26,180 nucleotides of DNA from a virus. The notes beneath the pieces were generated by a model. It did not search any database. It was not told the DNA's origin and saw only the letters and a program-made list of their open reading frames with translations. A program made the position numbers and the translations under genes. The stretch is from positions 1 to 26,180 of the IMG/VR virus record IMGVR_UViG_3300010157_000214; one strand, given 5' to 3'. Numbering within the stretch: position 1 is the stretch's first letter; each line of letters opens with the position of its first letter. Below, one piece after another: positions 2,968 through 21,795 of the stretch.

Positions 2968-3183
2968 TCATTTCCAGTCGTCGTCCTCTCTATAGGTCAT
3001 GTATGGTAAAATATCGTTGTCAAATATTTGTGCCATGCTATTCCACAATGCTTTACGTTGCAGTTCAGTCATGCCTGATGACATTGGAAAATCATAACCA
3101 CCAGGATCAGATTCTTTAGTTAGTCCATAATCGTGCCTATAAGTCATGCACATACTTGTGATAATTTGTTCGCGTGTTTTCAT
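2968..3183 (-). CDS. Small phage protein, unknown function (71 aa)
   Basis: A 71-residue soluble protein. It has a conserved-looking core (MCMTYRHDYGL, then SSGMTELQRKALWNSMAQIF) and an acidic end (YREDDDWK). I do not know its function. The ATG at 3183 has no Shine-Dalgarno sequence. A consensus sigma70 promoter ends only 5 nt before it, so the mRNA may be leaderless. It stands alone between that promoter and the late promoter of the downstream endonuclease. Confidence 0.75.
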   Translation of the reverse strand: MKTREQIITSMCMTYRHDYGLTKESDPGGYDFPMSSGMTELQRKALWNSMAQIFDNDILPYMTYREDDDWK

Positions 3184-3900: not shown

Positions 3901-4416
3901 TTATTTTAAGAATTCTTTAATGTCGAGGTCGTATTTTATACTATCTATTTTGTGTATACCTATTAGATATAAACAATAACTAGCCACGCTGCTACCTCTA
4001 CCAACACCCCAAACTATACCATGTTCTCGCATAGTATCTACCAAGTATTTAAGATAATACAATAGGTCCAGCATGCCATGCTGAATAAACAGTTCTAATT
4101 CTAAACTTACTCTATCTCTTTGTTCGTCAGTTTTGCACATTCCGTAAATTTGTTGTATCAAATCTGGACAGTAGTTGTCGGGCATAAACCAATTAGATTG
4201 ATTAGTTTTATCAAATTGTTCAACACTTATTTCAGGTGGGATATATGTATCTAACGATTCAAAATTATCTCGATTGATATTTTTGGAATTATTGAATTGC
4301 TCTACAGTTGCAGTGTCTAGATAGATATTTTTGAAATGTTTAATCTTACCTGTATAGATGCTATTAAACATCTCTTCGGAAGATAAAAATACAGCACCAA
4401 ATTTGTCAATTCTCAT
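3901..4416 (-). CDS. DnaE-like fragment protein (DNA polymerase III alpha region, non-catalytic)
   Basis: A 171-residue protein whose C-terminal third resembles the start of the palm region of bacterial DNA polymerase III alpha. The text GIVWGVGRGSSVASYCLYLI and then DSIKYDLDIKEFL parallels the DnaE stretch 'GPGRGS..GS...Y.L.I...DP..f.L.FERFL'. The protein stops just where DnaE continues into PDFDVDF, which carries two catalytic aspartates, so polymerase activity is not expected. The middle (CKTDEQRDRVSLELELFIQH) is also DnaE-like in style. The ATG at 4416 has no Shine-Dalgarno sequence, but a sigma70-type promoter ends 6 nt upstream. Role unknown; it could bind template or compete with host replicase. 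Confidence 0.7.
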   Translation of the reverse strand: MRIDKFGAVFLSSEEMFNSIYTGKIKHFKNIYLDTATVEQFNNSKNINRDNFESLDTYIPPEISVEQFDKTNQSNWFMPDNYCPDLIQQIYGMCKTDEQRDRVSLELELFIQHGMLDLLYYLKYLVDTMREHGIVWGVGRGSSVASYCLYLIGIHKIDSIKYDLDIKEFLK

Positions 4417-4422
4417 TGTGTT

Positions 4423-4451
4423 AGTTTACACAACTTTTAAGATGTTGTCAA
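4423..4451 (-). promoter_or_regulatory. Sigma70-type promoter with upstream stop codon in the -35 box
   Basis: TTGACA (4446-4451), a 17-bp spacer and TAAACT (4423-4428) lie on the minus strand, 6 nt before the ATG at 4416. The TGA of the upstream 81-residue gene (4448-4450) is inside TTGACA. The -10 box matches 4 of 6 consensus bases, the -35 box all 6. Confidence 0.7.
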
Positions 4452-4693
4452 CGATCTATATTAATAAAGCTATCTAAATCTTGATTTCTATTTTGCATTA
4501 ATTTTTTACTAGCATTCTGTTGTCTAGTAATCTGCTCAAGTTTGTAAGATTCTAATATTACGGAAATTTGCTGCATAACTCCTCCCTGCCCAAAGCGAGA
4601 AGCTAAGAAATATTTTTGCATTAATTCGGTTATTTTATTATCTACATCTTCATCTTTTAATGTAGACAAGTCGGGTAATAATGGGTTGAACAT
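4448..4693 (-). CDS. Small phage protein, unknown function (81 aa)
   Basis: An 81-residue, mostly helical, Gln- and Asn-rich protein. It opens with MFNPLLPDLSTLKDED and then has KITELMQKYFLASRFGQGG. It reads as a conserved phage family, but I cannot name it. It begins one base after the stop of the neighbouring structural gene (4695), so it is probably expressed late with that gene. Its TGA stop is embedded in the -35 box of the promoter for the DnaE-like gene. Confidence 0.75.
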   Translation of the reverse strand: MFNPLLPDLSTLKDEDVDNKITELMQKYFLASRFGQGGVMQQISVILESYKLEQITRQQNASKKLMQNRNQDLDSFINIDR

Positions 4694-4694
4694 A

Positions 4695-5024
4695 TTATGG
4701 AAGAGTTACTACAGTTCCAGTCATTGTATACCATGTACCACTACTAATATATACTGGTTTAAAATAGCCATTAGTTAAAAATACCATAGTACCGTTATCT
4801 ACTGTTCCAAGATTATAAAGTTCGCTAGGTGTATAATTATTCAATATAACATTAGCTGGGTTGTTTACAGCAAGTTGTAAATTGGATATCTCTTGAGCAG
4901 CTATTTCAAAAGATGATTGTATCTTAGAAAAGTTTGTTCTAAACCCTTGACTATCATTATCTGCACCCGGAACAGGGTAACTAACGTTGATTGCGCTGCT
5001 ATAATTTGTGATTGTACTTGCCAT
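4695..5024 (-). CDS. Probable small virion structural protein
   Basis: A 109-residue protein. The N-terminus has NVSYPVPGADNDSQGFRTNF followed by EIAAQEISNLQ. This 'PVPG.DNDSQGFR.NF..I' pattern is one I associate with T4-like marine phage structural proteins of the baseplate or tail-fibre attachment type. The C-terminal half is beta-rich. I chose the ATG at 5024, which has GGAA a few bases upstream, over an in-frame TTG at 5036. A late promoter lies about 22 nt before the start, and the tail fibre gene is directly upstream. The virion role is an inference from motif and position. Confidence 0.72.
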   Translation of the reverse strand: MASTITNYSSAINVSYPVPGADNDSQGFRTNFSKIQSSFEIAAQEISNLQLAVNNPANVILNNYTPSELYNLGTVDNGTMVFLTNGYFKPVYISSGTWYTMTGTVVTLP

Positions 5025-5046
5025 TTCTAATTCCAATTGTTTTTAT

Positions 5047-8334: not shown

Positions 8335-8535
8335 CTAATGTATTGTTGTTATAGTAATTTCATGTAAATCTTTTATTCCAAAAATCTTCATTATTTTTTT
8401 AATAGATGTAGGAGGATCTTCTATTAAATTCTCAGGTATAGACATGCTTTTTAGTTCACCATCGGGACCTATTATAAATCCAAAGTCATCGGGCCCAAAT
8501 TCATCATCATAGTCGTAAATTTCCTCATCATTCAT
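8335..8535 (-). CDS. Small acidic phage protein (66 aa)
   Basis: A 66-residue protein with a very acidic N-terminus (MNDEEIYDYDDEFGPDDFGF), then IIGPDGELKSMSIPENL and a helical C-terminus. The acidic start could mimic DNA or bind a basic partner, but that is speculation. It is preceded by a CATAAATA late element 26 nt upstream and sits immediately upstream of the tail fibre gene, which suggests late expression and possibly a virion or assembly role. The ribosome site is weak. I do not recognise the family. Confidence 0.65.
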   Translation of the reverse strand: MNDEEIYDYDDEFGPDDFGFIIGPDGELKSMSIPENLIEDPPTSIKKIMKIFGIKDLHEITITTIH

Positions 8536-8581: not shown

Positions 8582-8612
8582 ATATTAGCATTTAATGCAA
8601 AGGAAATTAATC

Positions 8613-8984
8613 ATGTTTAAAAAAATCAAAGAGTTTTTCGTAGGAAAGCCCGCACCCGCACCTGCAGAGCCAATAGACACCTGGGTGACAGCACCATACA
8701 AGGTACCGGAACCAGCAGCAATAACACCAATTCCATTTATTGTTACTAACAGTAATCCTGCAGATAATGTACCGGTTGCTGAAGTAGCTGCCCCAGTTGT
8801 AGAAACTGTTGTCGAAGCTGCCCCAGTTGTAGAAACTGTTGTTGAAGCCGCACCTGCTAAGAAGCCACGTAAACCACGTACTCCTAAAGTAGAAGTAGTC
8901 CAAGAAAAAGCCCCAGCAAAAGCTAAGGCTGTTCCTAAACTAACAGTGGTTAAATCTACTAAAACAAAATCAAAGCAGGTTTAA
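8613..8984 (+). CDS. Ala/Pro/Lys-rich protein with H1-like basic tail
   Basis: A 123-residue low-complexity protein. After MFKKIKEFFVGKP come Pro/Ala-rich stretches (PAPAPAEP, VPEPAAITPIP) and then tandem VVETVVEAAP. The C-terminus is Lys/Pro/Ala-rich (AKKPRKPRTPK, APAKAKAVPK, STKTKSKQ), in the style of histone H1-like or AlgP tails. I chose the ATG at 8613, with AGGA 8 nt upstream, over an in-frame ATG at 8595. It is the only plus-strand gene inside the minus-strand block, and its last 15 bases overlap the end of uvsE. Nucleic-acid or polyanion binding is plausible, unproven. Confidence 0.75.
   Translation: MFKKIKEFFVGKPAPAPAEPIDTWVTAPYKVPEPAAITPIPFIVTNSNPADNVPVAEVAAPVVETVVEAAPVVETVVEAAPAKKPRKPRTPKVEVVQEKAPAKAKAVPKLTVVKSTKTKSKQV
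8787..8842 (+). repeat. Tandem 30-bp repeat coding VVETVVEAAP
   Basis: A 26-base block at 8787-8812 recurs identically at 8817-8842, giving a 30-bp period that encodes two consecutive VVETVVEAAP units in the Ala/Pro-rich protein. It looks like a recent in-frame slippage duplication. Confidence 0.85.
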
Positions 8985-10348: not shown

Positions 10349-10582
10349 TTACCACTCCTTAGTAAGTGCGTGATACACTAGAAATTGTTTAAAAGCACGA
10401 TACACTGCTAGCCCTTCTTCCTCATCTACCGGAACTTTTTTTTCCCTAACATAGAAACCGTCTTCTGTAATTTTAAGCATTTCGGAAGAACCACCGTGGA
10501 ATACAATATTATTCCCAGGAGGTGAAGTTATGGACAGAACTGGATCTGGTAGTGCAGAGTCTTGGATAATGTATTGTGTCAT
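10349..10582 (-). CDS. Small phage protein, unknown function (77 aa)
   Basis: A 77-residue protein with a beta-rich first half (NNIVFHGGSSEMLKITEDGF) and a helical end (GLAVYRAFKQFLVYHAL). Family not recognised. The ATG at 10582 lacks a Shine-Dalgarno sequence. A sigma70 promoter ends 6 nt upstream, so a leaderless message is predicted. It heads a small operon continuing through two 59-residue proteins to uvsE, so this promoter may drive uvsE early in infection. Confidence 0.75.
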   Translation of the reverse strand: MTQYIIQDSALPDPVLSITSPPGNNIVFHGGSSEMLKITEDGFYVREKKVPVDEEEGLAVYRAFKQFLVYHALTKEW

Positions 10583-10588
10583 GTGTAT

Positions 10589-10617
10589 ATTTTACACTAC
10601 TTTGCGGAAATAGTCAA
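10589..10617 (-). promoter_or_regulatory. Sigma70-type promoter with upstream stop codon in the -35 box
   Basis: TTGACT (10612-10617), a 17-bp spacer and TAAAAT (10589-10594) on the minus strand, 6 nt before the ATG at 10582. Each box is one base off consensus. The TGA of the upstream oxygenase gene (10614-10616) lies inside the -35 box. Layout and the 31-nt gap match the promoter at 4423-4451. Confidence 0.8.
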
Positions 10618-11198
10618 GGAATTTTATGATACCAACCTGTTAGAATATACTTGTTTTGAGAATATACTGGATTACCTCGATGTATATGCGTTGATCCAGC
10701 GGGCCATATTACAATAGTACCTGCTTTTGGTTTCACTCGTTTATGTTGGTATAAAAATTCTGTTTCGGCTTCATTATCGGGCATATCATTTAAGTAGATC
10801 ATCCAGACCAATTCTCTAGAATAAGAATCTTCTCCAGCATTGGTTTCACAATGCCATACATGGTATCCGCCCATTGGCATTGTTCTTTGAAGTTTAAATT
10901 CGTACCTATTGTTTAATGTTAATGCTTTGAGTTGACCAAATTCTTCAATGTATTCTAATAATGCACTATGTAAATAATCTAAAAACGTATTACATAATTC
11001 AAATTGTTGATACAGTTTATCTCCAAGGAATATTGCAATATCCTTCCTTCCTAAATTTGTATCAGTAAACTGTTTGTTATTATTAATGATAGACTCTTTA
11101 TACTCGGGCGTAGTAATAATTTGTTCAAAGGTTTCTATGGCTTTTGTGCAAATATTCTTTGGTACAGTATTTTCCCAAATTCTAATAAAGTCTTCCAT
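10614..11198 (-). CDS. 2-oxoglutarate/Fe(II)-dependent oxygenase-like protein
   Basis: A 194-residue protein of the prolyl-4-hydroxylase-like 2OG-Fe(II) oxygenase superfamily, which hydroxylates a substrate using Fe(II), oxygen and 2-oxoglutarate. The iron triad is suggested by H116-C-E118 (VWHCET) and a distal His in GSTHIHRGNP (171 or 173). A basic residue downstream (YILTGW region) would hold the 2OG. The middle has EFLYQHKRVKPKAGTIVIWP, a typical double-stranded beta-helix stretch. HxE rather than HxD is a known family variation. The substrate is unknown; the neighbours are sugar enzymes. The start at 11198 lacks a clear ribosome site and lies 5 nt after the upstream stop, suggesting coupling. 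Confidence 0.85.
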   Translation of the reverse strand: MEDFIRIWENTVPKNICTKAIETFEQIITTPEYKESIINNNKQFTDTNLGRKDIAIFLGDKLYQQFELCNTFLDYLHSALLEYIEEFGQLKALTLNNRYEFKLQRTMPMGGYHVWHCETNAGEDSYSRELVWMIYLNDMPDNEAETEFLYQHKRVKPKAGTIVIWPAGSTHIHRGNPVYSQNKYILTGWYHKIP

Positions 11199-11203
11199 TG
11201 CAG

Positions 11204-12130
11204 TTACGTCTTAAAATATTCAATAGTTTTAATCAATCCTTGTTCTAAATTAATCTTAGGTTCCCATCCTAATATTATTTTAGCACGATCTATATTTGGT
11301 TTTCGTTGTGTTGGATCATCCTTAGGCAAGTCCATATGAACAATCTTACTGTTACTACCGGTAAGTTGTATTACCTTTTCAGCTAATTCCAACATAGTAA
11401 ACTCCCCAGGATTACCAATATTAACAGGACCAGTTACTTGATCGTCAGTATCCATAAGTGCCATCATTCCGTCTAACAAATCATCAACGTAGCAGAAACT
11501 GCGTGTTTGAAGTCCAGTACCATATATAGTAATATCAGTTCCTTTTAATGCCTGAACAATAAAATTACTAACAACTCTGCCGTCATTTTCTGACATTTTT
11601 GGACCATAAGTGTTAAAAATACGCATAATTTTAATGCGTACATTATGTACACGATTATAGTCTATAAACAATGTTTCTGCTGCACGTTTACCTTCGTCGT
11701 AGCAACTACGAATACCAATTGGGTTTACATGTCCCCAATATTCTTCTGGTTGTGGATGCACAACTGGATCACCATAAACTTCACTGGTACTGGCCTGTAA
11801 GATTTTTGCACCAGTACGTTTAGCCAATCCTAACATATTAACGGCACCAATCACTGATGTTTTTATAGTTTGAATTGGATCTAGTTGATAGTAATAGGGA
11901 CTTGCTGGACAAGCCAAATTATAAATCTCGTCCACTTCAACATATAAAGGCAAGCAGATGTCTTGTCTAATAACTTCAAAGTTTTTATTATCTAGCAGGT
12001 GCTTGATATTCTTTTTGCTACCTGTAAAATAATTATCGACACAAAGTACATGATGCCCTTGTGTTACTAGCCTATCGCATAAATGACTTCCGAGAAATCC
12101 TGCACCACCGGTTACTAATATTTTTTTCAT
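11204..12130 (-). CDS. UDP-glucuronic acid decarboxylase-like SDR (UXS)
   Basis: A 308-residue NAD-dependent extended short-chain dehydrogenase. The UXS group turns UDP-glucuronate into UDP-xylose. Key features are the dinucleotide motif [10 protein letters not shown] (8-17), acidic D32 after the second strand, [19 protein letters not shown] (73-91), STSEVYGDP (114-122), the catalytic Tyr-Lys pair in [10 protein letters not shown] (Y144, K148), and [10 protein letters not shown]. The ASP..YQ..PI.T.KT and G.R.CYDEGKR wording is specific to UXS among epimerases. The length is standard. It supplies an activated pentose next to the methyltransferase and GH130-like genes, consistent with sugar decoration of phage or host surface. 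Confidence 0.9.
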
Positions 12131-19609: not shown

Positions 19610-19750
19610 CTATGTTAAAATATTGTTAATAAAATCTATTGCCATTTGTACAAGTTCAACACTGATATTAAGTTTGGCAGCAATATCCGACACTGTAAAA
19701 TGGCGGTCCATCATTTCACGGACCGCCATAATAACATCTTTGCGTATCAC
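19610..19750 (-). CDS. Small helix-turn-helix-like protein (46 aa, GTG start)
   Basis: A 46-residue protein starting at a GTG that overlaps the stop of the 406-residue gene (GTGA), with AAGG about 8 nt upstream. The text VIMAVREMMDRHFTVSDIAA then KLNISVELVQMAIDFI looks like a helix-turn-helix ('t..diA..l.iS...V..ai..i'), as in many small regulators. No methionine start exists upstream in a better place. A DNA-binding role is possible but unproven. It fills a gap of 139 bases. Confidence 0.68.
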   Translation of the reverse strand: MIRKDVIMAVREMMDRHFTVSDIAAKLNISVELVQMAIDFINNILT

Positions 19751-20967
19751 TTAAACACCTTCAAAATCATAATGTCTGCGTTCATGCGTCCGTTTAGCAA
19801 GGTATCAGTTGCCTTGATAGCAGTAATCCAAGATTCAACTCGTCGTTGCGTATTTTGCAACTTCAAATCTTTCAACTGCTCTGCAGGCTTACGCAGAGTC
19901 TTTTGCATTGATTTCGCTGTGAATTCTGTAATGCTTGTACCTTTAACACTAAGACCTGCACTTGTTTTAGCAATGTACATACCAATCTTGCGTGTCTTGG
20001 AGTTGTACACAATTGCACCTTGTGCGCCAATTAATCCTGCTGCTGGCACTGAAGCCACGCCCAACTTGTCGTCAGTTAATTTGAATTTAATCTTCTTAAC
20101 CAATTCTTCCGCCGGTTTAACTTTAGTAGCACGGGGTTTTTTCATTACCTTAGCTTCTGCTGCAATCTGCTCACAGGCCTGTGCAATGCTTTCGTAAAAC
20201 TCAATCAATTTCTTAACGTTCTTACGGCTTGCAAACTTGTAGCCTTCTTTCAATTGCTCATCAGCATTGCCACTTGACAGTTCTTGCAGTTCGGCCAATC
20301 CGTTAGCAAAGAATCCTTTAATGTATCGGGCCTGTGCTGCCTTTGCACCCTTGCCTCGCAACAGACTAACCATTTTAAACGACTTTGGATCAAATGCCTC
20401 TGGATCCGTGATCCAGCTATCAATAGCTGCATCGATCTCGTCGCTCATTCCAACTGCTTGTTCGCGGATACGATCTTGGATATTCATAACAGGCGCTACA
20501 GACCTAGTGGCCTTAGTTTCTTCAATTACTTCAATATCCCACTTACCTGCTTCAACGGCATTAGCAATTTGCTCTTTTAACCAAGTAGCGGCACTACGGT
20601 TCTCATTGAACCCTTGGAAAGTGTCCGGCATACCTTTAATTAGACATGCAGCAATAGAACCCATAACTAGGTCACAGCGCCAATCTTTAGTTTTCTTAAA
20701 TTCTGCTATTTGATCACGATCGTAACCATTACGACCCATCCAATCAATTACTTTGGGTTTAAGTTCTTTTGCGGAACTTTCCAAACGGTAGTATTTCATT
20801 GCTTCGCGGAACTTAGCAGTATATTCTGAAGGAGACAGCAACTCAGTACCATCCCATTTTGGGCTCAGATCACGCTTGGCGTTTTCACGAATGCTTTGAC
20901 TAGTTACTCGAACTTTTGGAGCCGCTGCGGGTTTGGTCTTAATTTTGATTCCTGCTACTGTTGCCAT
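19747..20967 (-). CDS. Large phage protein, unknown function (406 aa)
   Basis: A 406-residue protein that I cannot assign. The N-terminus is Lys/Ala/Pro-rich (GIKIKTKPAAAPKVRVTS). Residues about 45-75 contain EYTAKFREAMKYYRLESSAK, and about 75-95 VIDWMGRNGYDRDQIAEFKK. The middle is helical, and a basic linker (KKPRATKVKPAEELVKKIKF) leads to a C-terminal domain with GQGAIVYNSKTRKIGMY-like wording. It is headed by a consensus sigma70 promoter and TAGGAG 8 nt before the ATG, so it should be strongly and early expressed. DNA binding or a host-takeover role is conceivable, nothing more. Confidence 0.85.
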   Translation of the reverse strand: MATVAGIKIKTKPAAAPKVRVTSQSIRENAKRDLSPKWDGTELLSPSEYTAKFREAMKYYRLESSAKELKPKVIDWMGRNGYDRDQIAEFKKTKDWRCDLVMGSIAACLIKGMPDTFQGFNENRSAATWLKEQIANAVEAGKWDIEVIEETKATRSVAPVMNIQDRIREQAVGMSDEIDAAIDSWITDPEAFDPKSFKMVSLLRGKGAKAAQARYIKGFFANGLAELQELSSGNADEQLKEGYKFASRKNVKKLIEFYESIAQACEQIAAEAKVMKKPRATKVKPAEELVKKIKFKLTDDKLGVASVPAAGLIGAQGAIVYNSKTRKIGMYIAKTSAGLSVKGTSITEFTAKSMQKTLRKPAEQLKDLKLQNTQRRVESWITAIKATDTLLNGRMNADIMILKVFK

Positions 20968-21001
20968 ATATAACTCCTAGTGTTGCTGCGTTTATGTATT
21001 A

Positions 21002-21030
21002 ATTATACAGCATTTTTGACTCTTTGTCAA
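21002..21030 (-). promoter_or_regulatory. Consensus sigma70 promoter with stop codon in the -35 box
   Basis: TTGACA (21025-21030), a 17-bp spacer and TATAAT (21002-21007) on the minus strand, a perfect consensus match, driving the 406-residue gene with a leader of about 28 nt. The upstream gene's TGA (21027-21029) is inside TTGACA. The -35 region forms a 5-bp inverted repeat, TTGAC-AAAGA-GTCAA, at 21016-21030. Confidence 0.92.
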
Positions 21031-21638
21031 GTGTTGGTTTTACCAATTTCTATGTGATCGCTGTAATCGCCTTCACGGAAGATCCAACCTAATTTCTTTA
21101 GGTCTTCTTTGATATCATCAGTAATCATTCCCTCACCTACAAATGCTTGACCTTCTTTGTAATAAGTTTGTTGCTTTAGAGTCCATCCTTCCCATTCTCC
21201 GGGGTCTAATGGTAGGGGATTTCTTATGCCTGAACAATACCAATCAATGTAATCACCTTCTCCGCGCATGTCTGCTACAATACCACCAGCACTACGCCAA
21301 CTGGCGCTCCATCTTTCGTCTTTGAGTATAGGCCAAACTTCAAATCTTTGGAACTCGTTGTTACACATAGCAGCATAAAGATTTTGAGCATATACACGAC
21401 TTTCACGTACCTTGGCAACCATCCAATCGGCACTGCGCATATCAAACTCCATATTGTTCTCTTGCCATTTGGTATCAGTTAGATTTTCCTCATCCCTAAG
21501 CGCCCAACTGTTGTACATTTCAATCATGGCTTTAACATTTGGATCGTTGAGACTTTTACCTTCCTTAACAACTCGTTTAATATAGTTGTCTCTTTGGAAG
21601 GTATGTCGATCAGGGCTGCTGGAGATTTGAGATGTCAT
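21027..21638 (-). CDS. Phage protein, unknown function (203 aa)
   Basis: A 203-residue soluble, Trp-rich protein with HTFQRDNYIKRVVKEGKSLN, MIEMYNSWALRDEENL and RWSASWRSAGGIVADMRGEG. It ends with DYSDHIEIGK. I chose the ATG at 21638. A GTG at 21671 is also in frame, but it would double the overlap with the zinc-ribbon gene, and neither has a clear ribosome site. Function unknown. Its TGA is embedded in the -35 box of the next promoter. Confidence 0.75.
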   Translation of the reverse strand: MTSQISSSPDRHTFQRDNYIKRVVKEGKSLNDPNVKAMIEMYNSWALRDEENLTDTKWQENNMEFDMRSADWMVAKVRESRVYAQNLYAAMCNNEFQRFEVWPILKDERWSASWRSAGGIVADMRGEGDYIDWYCSGIRNPLPLDPGEWEGWTLKQQTYYKEGQAFVGEGMITDDIKEDLKKLGWIFREGDYSDHIEIGKTNT

Positions 21639-21795
21639 TTGGAGTTGCAGGTCTACGAGTACAAAATTCACAGTATTGATCTGTACAAATATCTTCTAAC
21701 CATCTGTTGCATTTCTCACAGTAATAAGCATCATATCCATTTGAGTATGATTTCTTAGTACCGCAAATTTTGCAGTTGTATTCGTTTATGTCCAC
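21610..21795 (-). CDS. Small zinc-ribbon-like protein (61 aa)
   Basis: A 61-residue Cys-rich protein: C8-x2-C11, C26-x2-C29, then C37 and C42-x2-C45. The first two pairs (NCKICGTKK and YYCEKCNRW) fit a zinc ribbon, and the last three Cys could hold a second metal. The GTG start at 21795 lies inside the end of the 282-residue gene (overlap 10 nt). Its end overlaps the downstream gene by 29 nt. Small phage zinc ribbons often regulate or bind nucleic acid, but function here is unknown. Confidence 0.7.
   Translation of the reverse strand: MDINEYNCKICGTKKSYSNGYDAYYCEKCNRWLEDICTDQYCEFCTRRPATPNDISNLQQP

Follow-up and report, generated by a model that had tools for sequence, protein, structure and literature searches.

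The window analysed here is the whole of a 26,180-base virus record in which nearly all genes lie on the minus strand, the plus-strand gene at 8595-8984 being among the very few of its kind. Its genes include those for a T4-type clamp loader, a head protease, a tail fibre protein and a polymerase III alpha-like fragment. Judged from this 26-kb fragment, the nearest relatives found in culture are the PA5oct-like Pseudomonas jumbo phages, with 30-57% protein identity; uncultivated viral contigs, reaching 353 kb in length, supply many that are closer. A near-DNA search against cultured phages gave no match, and a search of bacterial genomes for the host with a 406-aa protein encoded in the window found no relative of that protein.

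At three junctions in the window, all on the minus strand, the TGA stop of the upstream gene forms bases 2-4 of the -35 hexamer of a promoter that precedes the next gene. This arrangement had been proposed in the initial annotation and is base-exact at all three sites, each of which also carries the -10 box and 17-bp spacer assigned to it there. The stop-to-ATG gaps measure 31, 31 and 59 nt, in agreement with the claim that two of them are exactly 31 nt. At the first site the -35 hexamer TTGACA (4451-4446) contains the TGA (4450-4448) of gene 4448-4693, which encodes an 81-aa protein of phrog_15348 with no assigned function and whose stop-in--35 junction is kept in several relatives. The -10 box TAAACT (4428-4423) includes an in-frame TAA four codons before the next ATG (4416-4414), which lies 6 nt after the -10 and opens gene 3901-4416, whose 171-aa product is a relative of the jumbo-phage DNA polymerase III alpha fragments (PF07733). 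At the second site TTGACT (10617-10612) contains the TGA (10616-10614) of gene 10614-11198, and the TAA of its -10 box TAAAAT (10594-10589) is in frame with an ATG (10582-10580), again 6 nt downstream, that begins gene 10349-10582, for a 77-aa protein without a known family.

The third site is organised differently. Its TTGACA (21030-21025) contains the TGA (21029-21027) of gene 21027-21671 and, with TATAAT (21007-21002) across a 17-bp spacer, makes a promoter with a consensus score of 12/12, and the ATG of gene 19747-20967 (at 20967) lies 34 nt after the -10. Here the -10 box does not adjoin the start codon, and a Shine-Dalgarno sequence, AGGAG (20978-20974), precedes the gene. This is an ordinary leadered promoter, with a predicted start at 20995 and a leader of about 28 nt. 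It is conserved in relatives while its upstream context varies. Gene 19747-20967 itself encodes the 406-aa protein, which is conserved and has no assigned function (phrog_11903); in dozens of relatives its gene is preceded by a strong leadered promoter that is likewise conserved. A box of sequence GGTAAAAC (21037-21044, minus strand) is found 14 nt upstream of the start of this -35.

A fourth promoter, absent from the initial annotation, occupies 3217-3189 on the minus strand. It has the sequence TTGACA-N17-TATAAT, with no stop overlap, and the ATG of gene 2968-3183 (minus strand) follows its -10 box by 5 nt, a start geometry nearly equal to that of the 31-nt sites. All four window promoters have sigma-70-type hexamers, near consensus and within the usual 16-18 bp of each other, with scores of 10/12, 10/12, 12/12 and 12/12 for sites 1 to 3 and the fourth promoter and a 17-bp spacer throughout; the -10 boxes of both 31-nt sites, TAAACT and TAAAAT, are imperfect. 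In place of a stop codon, the -35 of the fourth promoter forms the loop of a terminator-like hairpin (3222-3207, minus strand) that reads GGGTC-TTGACA-GGCCC followed by GTTTTTT. The hairpin has the G+C-rich stem and T run of an intrinsic terminator, termination itself being predicted, and its folding energy does not stand out from that of shuffled sequences (z -0.64). Hairpins with the -35 as loop number 19 among 1673 distinct promoter matches, vs 1.5 with shuffled flanks; these 19 include an orthologue (L040) and unrelated genes, and a further orthologue (L043) carries the same sequence as the window.

What had not been recognised is why 31 nt should recur. With the ATG placed at the predicted +1, the gap consists of the promoter alone: from a stop in the -35 to such a start there are 2+17+6+6 = 31 nt, which is the shortest that a promoter-only gap can be. 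The relatives bear this geometry out. In a set of 1229 distinct gene starts, the distance from -10 to ATG for promoters of at least 10/12 is 5 nt in 9 cases and 6 nt in 23, with a second, broad peak at 17-36 nt, while shuffles give 0.43 per distance. A Shine-Dalgarno sequence is found at none of the 32 sites with an ATG at 5-6 nt, vs 78 of 95 leadered sites. The same peak emerges without gene calling: of 336 promoters of at least 11/12 in eight long relatives, 39 are followed by an ATG at 6 nt and 10 by one at 5 nt, vs 0-6 for each distance from 8 to 15 nt. In a near-identical promoter set, the ATG at these two spacings opens an ORF of at least 50 codons in 29/38 and 6/10 cases (35/48 together), vs 3/17 at 8-15 nt. 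All 20 long records searched contain the pattern TTGACN-N16-18-TANNAT-N5,6-ATG, which is several-fold commoner than either its N10,11 version or the reversed pattern. Gap lengths tell the same story, with 11 gaps at 31 nt and 1-5 at each length of 27-30 and 32-34 nt. Leadered promoters show a C-A-T-A consensus at the position equivalent to the ATG, which fits initiation at its A. A further peak of ATGs 2 nt after the -10 (23 sites) was considered as a set of starts and rejected, only one of them opening a 50-codon ORF; these ATGs were assigned to the initial sequence of leadered promoters.

At 4416, 10582 and 3183 the -10 box, separated from the ATG by 5-6 nt in agreement with its position about 12 nt before the start codon in leaderless genes, contains an in-frame TAA, and no start codon intervenes between this TAA and the ATG, so none of these genes can start further upstream. 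A start further downstream would turn each gene into one whose mRNA begins near the ATG while translation begins at a later codon behind a Shine-Dalgarno sequence. The 16th codon of gene 3901-4416 is indeed an in-frame ATG, immediately preceded by GAAGAG, a sequence that leaves no spacing to that codon. However, residues 5-7 are conserved among its relatives (such as KFG, EYG and KYG), ahead of codon 16, which indicates that the annotated ATG is real. Gene 10349-10582 offers no alternative start before codon 35, and wrong starts would not be expected to produce a peak of long ORFs at precisely the 5-6 nt spacing. Misplaced starts are thus quite improbable. Stop, promoter and 6-nt spacing of the polymerase-fragment gene are kept in four relatives (L008, L013, L043 and G003, the contig of L041), and in two others (L003 and L012) the -35 is changed or moved.

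The history of the second promoter can be read in some detail. Upstream of the 10617 site lie gene 10614-11198, which encodes a 2OG-Fe(II) oxygenase, and gene 11204-12130, which encodes a nucleotide-sugar epimerase, both on the minus strand. Where relatives lack the oxygenase at this position (G002, G003, G007, L133 and L135), the promoter falls within the final codons of the epimerase gene, about 79-81% identical to that of the window; there TTGACTATTTCCG reads I-D-Y-F-R, and the TAA of the -10 box serves as the epimerase stop. In the window the corresponding stretch (10618-10592, minus strand), still readable as (L)DYFRKVV*, follows the oxygenase gene and is non-coding, the epimerase having its own ending, TIEYFKT. 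The 17-nt spacer of the window promoter is identical at 17/17 positions to that of L126, where it encodes DYFRKVV. Synteny extends downstream as well, the gene that follows this promoter in G007 being a 55% relative of the 77-aa gene in the window. On these alignments the 10617 promoter is a fossil of the epimerase 3' end, a sequence that is still coding in relatives. Its position ahead of the small gene has been retained through a change in the coding context upstream, where the oxygenase now takes its stop from the TGA of the -35. The doubled epimerase ending favours insertion of the oxygenase over its loss elsewhere.

These comparisons bear on the view of the junction as a compact, reusable unit that restarts transcription. 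The sites do look like real sigma-70-type promoters that would start transcription anew where genes nearly touch, and the same layout is found at many unrelated junctions in many related phages, but a sequence unit copied between the short sites is not supported. The wording said to be shared around their -10 boxes, GTGTAAA.TA.ACA, aligns only after a one-base shift past the -10; it is not a common motif, because the orthologues of site 1 differ there and the site 2 copy descends from epimerase codons. A motif common to both short sites was rejected on these grounds, the two differing in origin. A dedicated mobile or copied promoter cassette, inserted between genes, is extremely improbable. 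The recurrence of a ACTATTTCCG spacer ahead of different small genes might suggest one, but it is explained by the epimerase 3' end standing in front of different genes, and the other sites have no spacer sequence in common.

Whether stop and promoter coincide more often than chance allows depends on what is counted. Taken alone, the pattern TTGAC[AT]-N15-19-TANNNT shows no clear enrichment in the window (9 occurrences vs 5.1 expected; 6 of 100 shuffles reach 9), and such weak enrichment speaks for the view that the hexamers are chance occurrences in AT-rich DNA, the genes being transcribed from operon promoters further upstream and perhaps translated by termination-reinitiation. Counting from the stop codons gives a different result. 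In the window all 3 TGA stops in TTGAC context are followed by a -10, vs 9.4% of TTGAC inside genes, for which simple multiplication gives a chance of about 8e-4. Across window and relatives, 81 of 901 distinct TGA stops lie in TTGAC; a -10 box at 16-18 bp accompanies 69 of these 81 (85%), vs 190 of 2016 TTGAC inside genes (9.4%), well above background. Aligned on promoters of at least 10/12, 69 stops fall at the stop-in--35 offset and 0-13 at each other offset, the two counts of 69 resting on slightly different criteria. Promoter geometry is, moreover, kept while spacer sequence diverges, and the 31-nt gaps have no Shine-Dalgarno sequence, all of which makes chance hexamers very improbable. 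The gene calls come from a home-made caller; some loci were retrieved via the genes under study, and the long contigs were read over their full length. As the relatives are not independent, families rather than sites are the safer counting unit, and the 69 stop-in--35 sites reduce to 47 upstream-gene families, 12 of which also have an ATG 5-6 nt after the -10.

A more serious alternative is that the overlap is a functionless by-product of genome compaction, in which a promoter comes to lie at a gene end and TTGA supplies the stop in one case of three, since any gene running into such a promoter must stop at TTGA in one frame in three. By family, the share of stops located at the -35 is 47/119 for promoters of at least 10/12, no different from 1/3 (p = 0.09), and stops immediately before the -35, as well as TAA stops within the -10, occur too in the relatives, both as expected under compaction. 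In viral contigs at large the stop-in--35 arrangement is found at 10-12% of perfect-consensus matches (15/120 and 12/119 among the matches listed), and this share is the same whatever the ATG distance in a sample that was drawn from patterns with the ATG at N6 and N11 and compared for the listed matches only. The overlap is therefore special neither to leaderless starts nor to this group of phages. Compression, raised in the initial annotation as a possible simple explanation, thus covers much of the overlap, but an excess over 1/3 is left at strong promoters, 36/66 at 11/12 or better (p = 3e-4) and 29/44 at 12/12 (p = 1e-5). It also leaves the start codon at +1 and the missing Shine-Dalgarno sequence unexplained. 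Compaction alone is given somewhat less than an even chance of accounting for the overlap, which is the only feature it touches, and it is compatible with a leaderless start.

The 31-nt sites are probably host-polymerase, sigma-70-type promoters that hold the upstream stop in the -35 and the next ATG at +1, and that give rise to leaderless mRNA. On this reading host RNA polymerase would start at the A of the ATG at both the 4451 and the 10617 sites, that is, at 4416 for gene 3901-4416 and at the first base of gene 10349-10582, and both mRNAs are predicted to be leaderless. Ribosomes would recognise such an mRNA by its 5'-terminal AUG. As a predicted consequence for expression, the local promoter would control transcription and translation of the downstream gene alike, and read-through RNA from upstream would be expected to yield little of the downstream protein because the gap is without a Shine-Dalgarno sequence. 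On this account genome compaction is the main source of the stop overlap: coding sequence closes up on a fixed promoter, whose -35 then supplies the first stop in one frame in three. The 10617 promoter exemplifies this history, with an old epimerase 3' end and the 2OG-oxygenase gene now between. A broader and more doubtful possibility, offered tentatively, is that these are all-in-one junctions of 31-45 nt, in which the -35 is also the upstream stop or the terminator loop, the start codon is also the +1 and neighbouring genes are insulated from each other. Because the start codon would work only at a 5' end, insulation would extend to both RNA and protein and touching genes could be controlled independently.

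Several known systems offer parallels. The E. coli ampC promoter lies inside the end of the frd operon. There too promoter and upstream gene overlap at the gene's end, but ampC/frd is one locus, whereas the arrangement in the window recurs and the -35 hexamer itself is the stop or the hairpin loop. Bacterial leaderless genes whose -10 adjoins the ORF are known as TA-led genes (PMC3160421) and in Deinococcus-Thermus (PMC12340547). They resemble the window sites in having TANNNT about 10-12 nt before the start, no Shine-Dalgarno sequence and a start codon at the predicted 5' end. They are, however, genes of cellular genomes, whereas the window belongs to a group of jumbo phages with a full -35/-10 promoter and, unlike those genes, an upstream stop or terminator loop inside the -35. 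According to one paper (PMC5312081), leaderless transcripts are frequent in phages, and leaderless initiation has been found in lambda (PMC3160421), where cI (PMC9031893) is, like the window genes, a phage gene with predicted reading from a 5'-terminal AUG. The lambda case is a single repressor gene, whereas the present geometry is common to dozens of junctions in jumbo-phage relatives. Stop codons that overlap the Shine-Dalgarno sequence of the next gene have also been described (PMC2784483); as in the window, a stop doubles as a start signal for the next gene across short co-directional gaps, the shared signal being a ribosome site there and a transcription signal here. In a literature search that covered few subscription papers, no report was found of a stop or terminator loop in the -35 together with a start at +1. 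Each element is already known; the combination is, as far as this search reaches, new.

If this reading is correct, an uncultivated phage group is predicted to make a set of its genes from leaderless mRNAs, dependent on the state of the ribosome and not on Shine-Dalgarno sequences. The pattern TTGAC-N16-18-TANNAT-N5-6-ATG would provide a simple rule for finding such genes and correcting their starts. A promoter, it appears, can shift between coding and non-coding roles and retain its job. As a design, the junction would come close to the lower limit of length for a boundary between two genes that are expressed independently, with a new leaderless message begun within about 31 bases.

How widely the geometry extends among cultured phages was considered with T4, HTVC008M, S-PM2, Cr30 and PA5oct, in which no leaderless peak was seen and 0-2 stop-in--35 sites were found in each; these controls are weak evidence of absence because they have few strong promoters. 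Atu_ph07 was examined by pattern only. The PA5oct-like phages (Arenbergviridae, Wroclawvirus) share with the window a 57% identical clamp loader, a related polymerase III alpha fragment and the same family of 406-aa proteins, yet PA5oct itself, unlike the relatives of the window, has neither the leaderless peak nor a stop in the -35.

Two other kinds of putative regulatory sequence accompany these promoters. Among 304 strong promoters of G002, G004 and other relatives, the box GGTAAAAC(C) occurs 21 times at +9 to +11 from the -35 start and 8 times at -13/-14, where 0.02 per position would be expected, and it looks like a site for a phage regulator. Sequences resembling T4-type late promoters, TATAAATA or CATAAATA, lie upstream of genes 2191-2913, 4695-5036 and 8335-8535, all on the minus strand.
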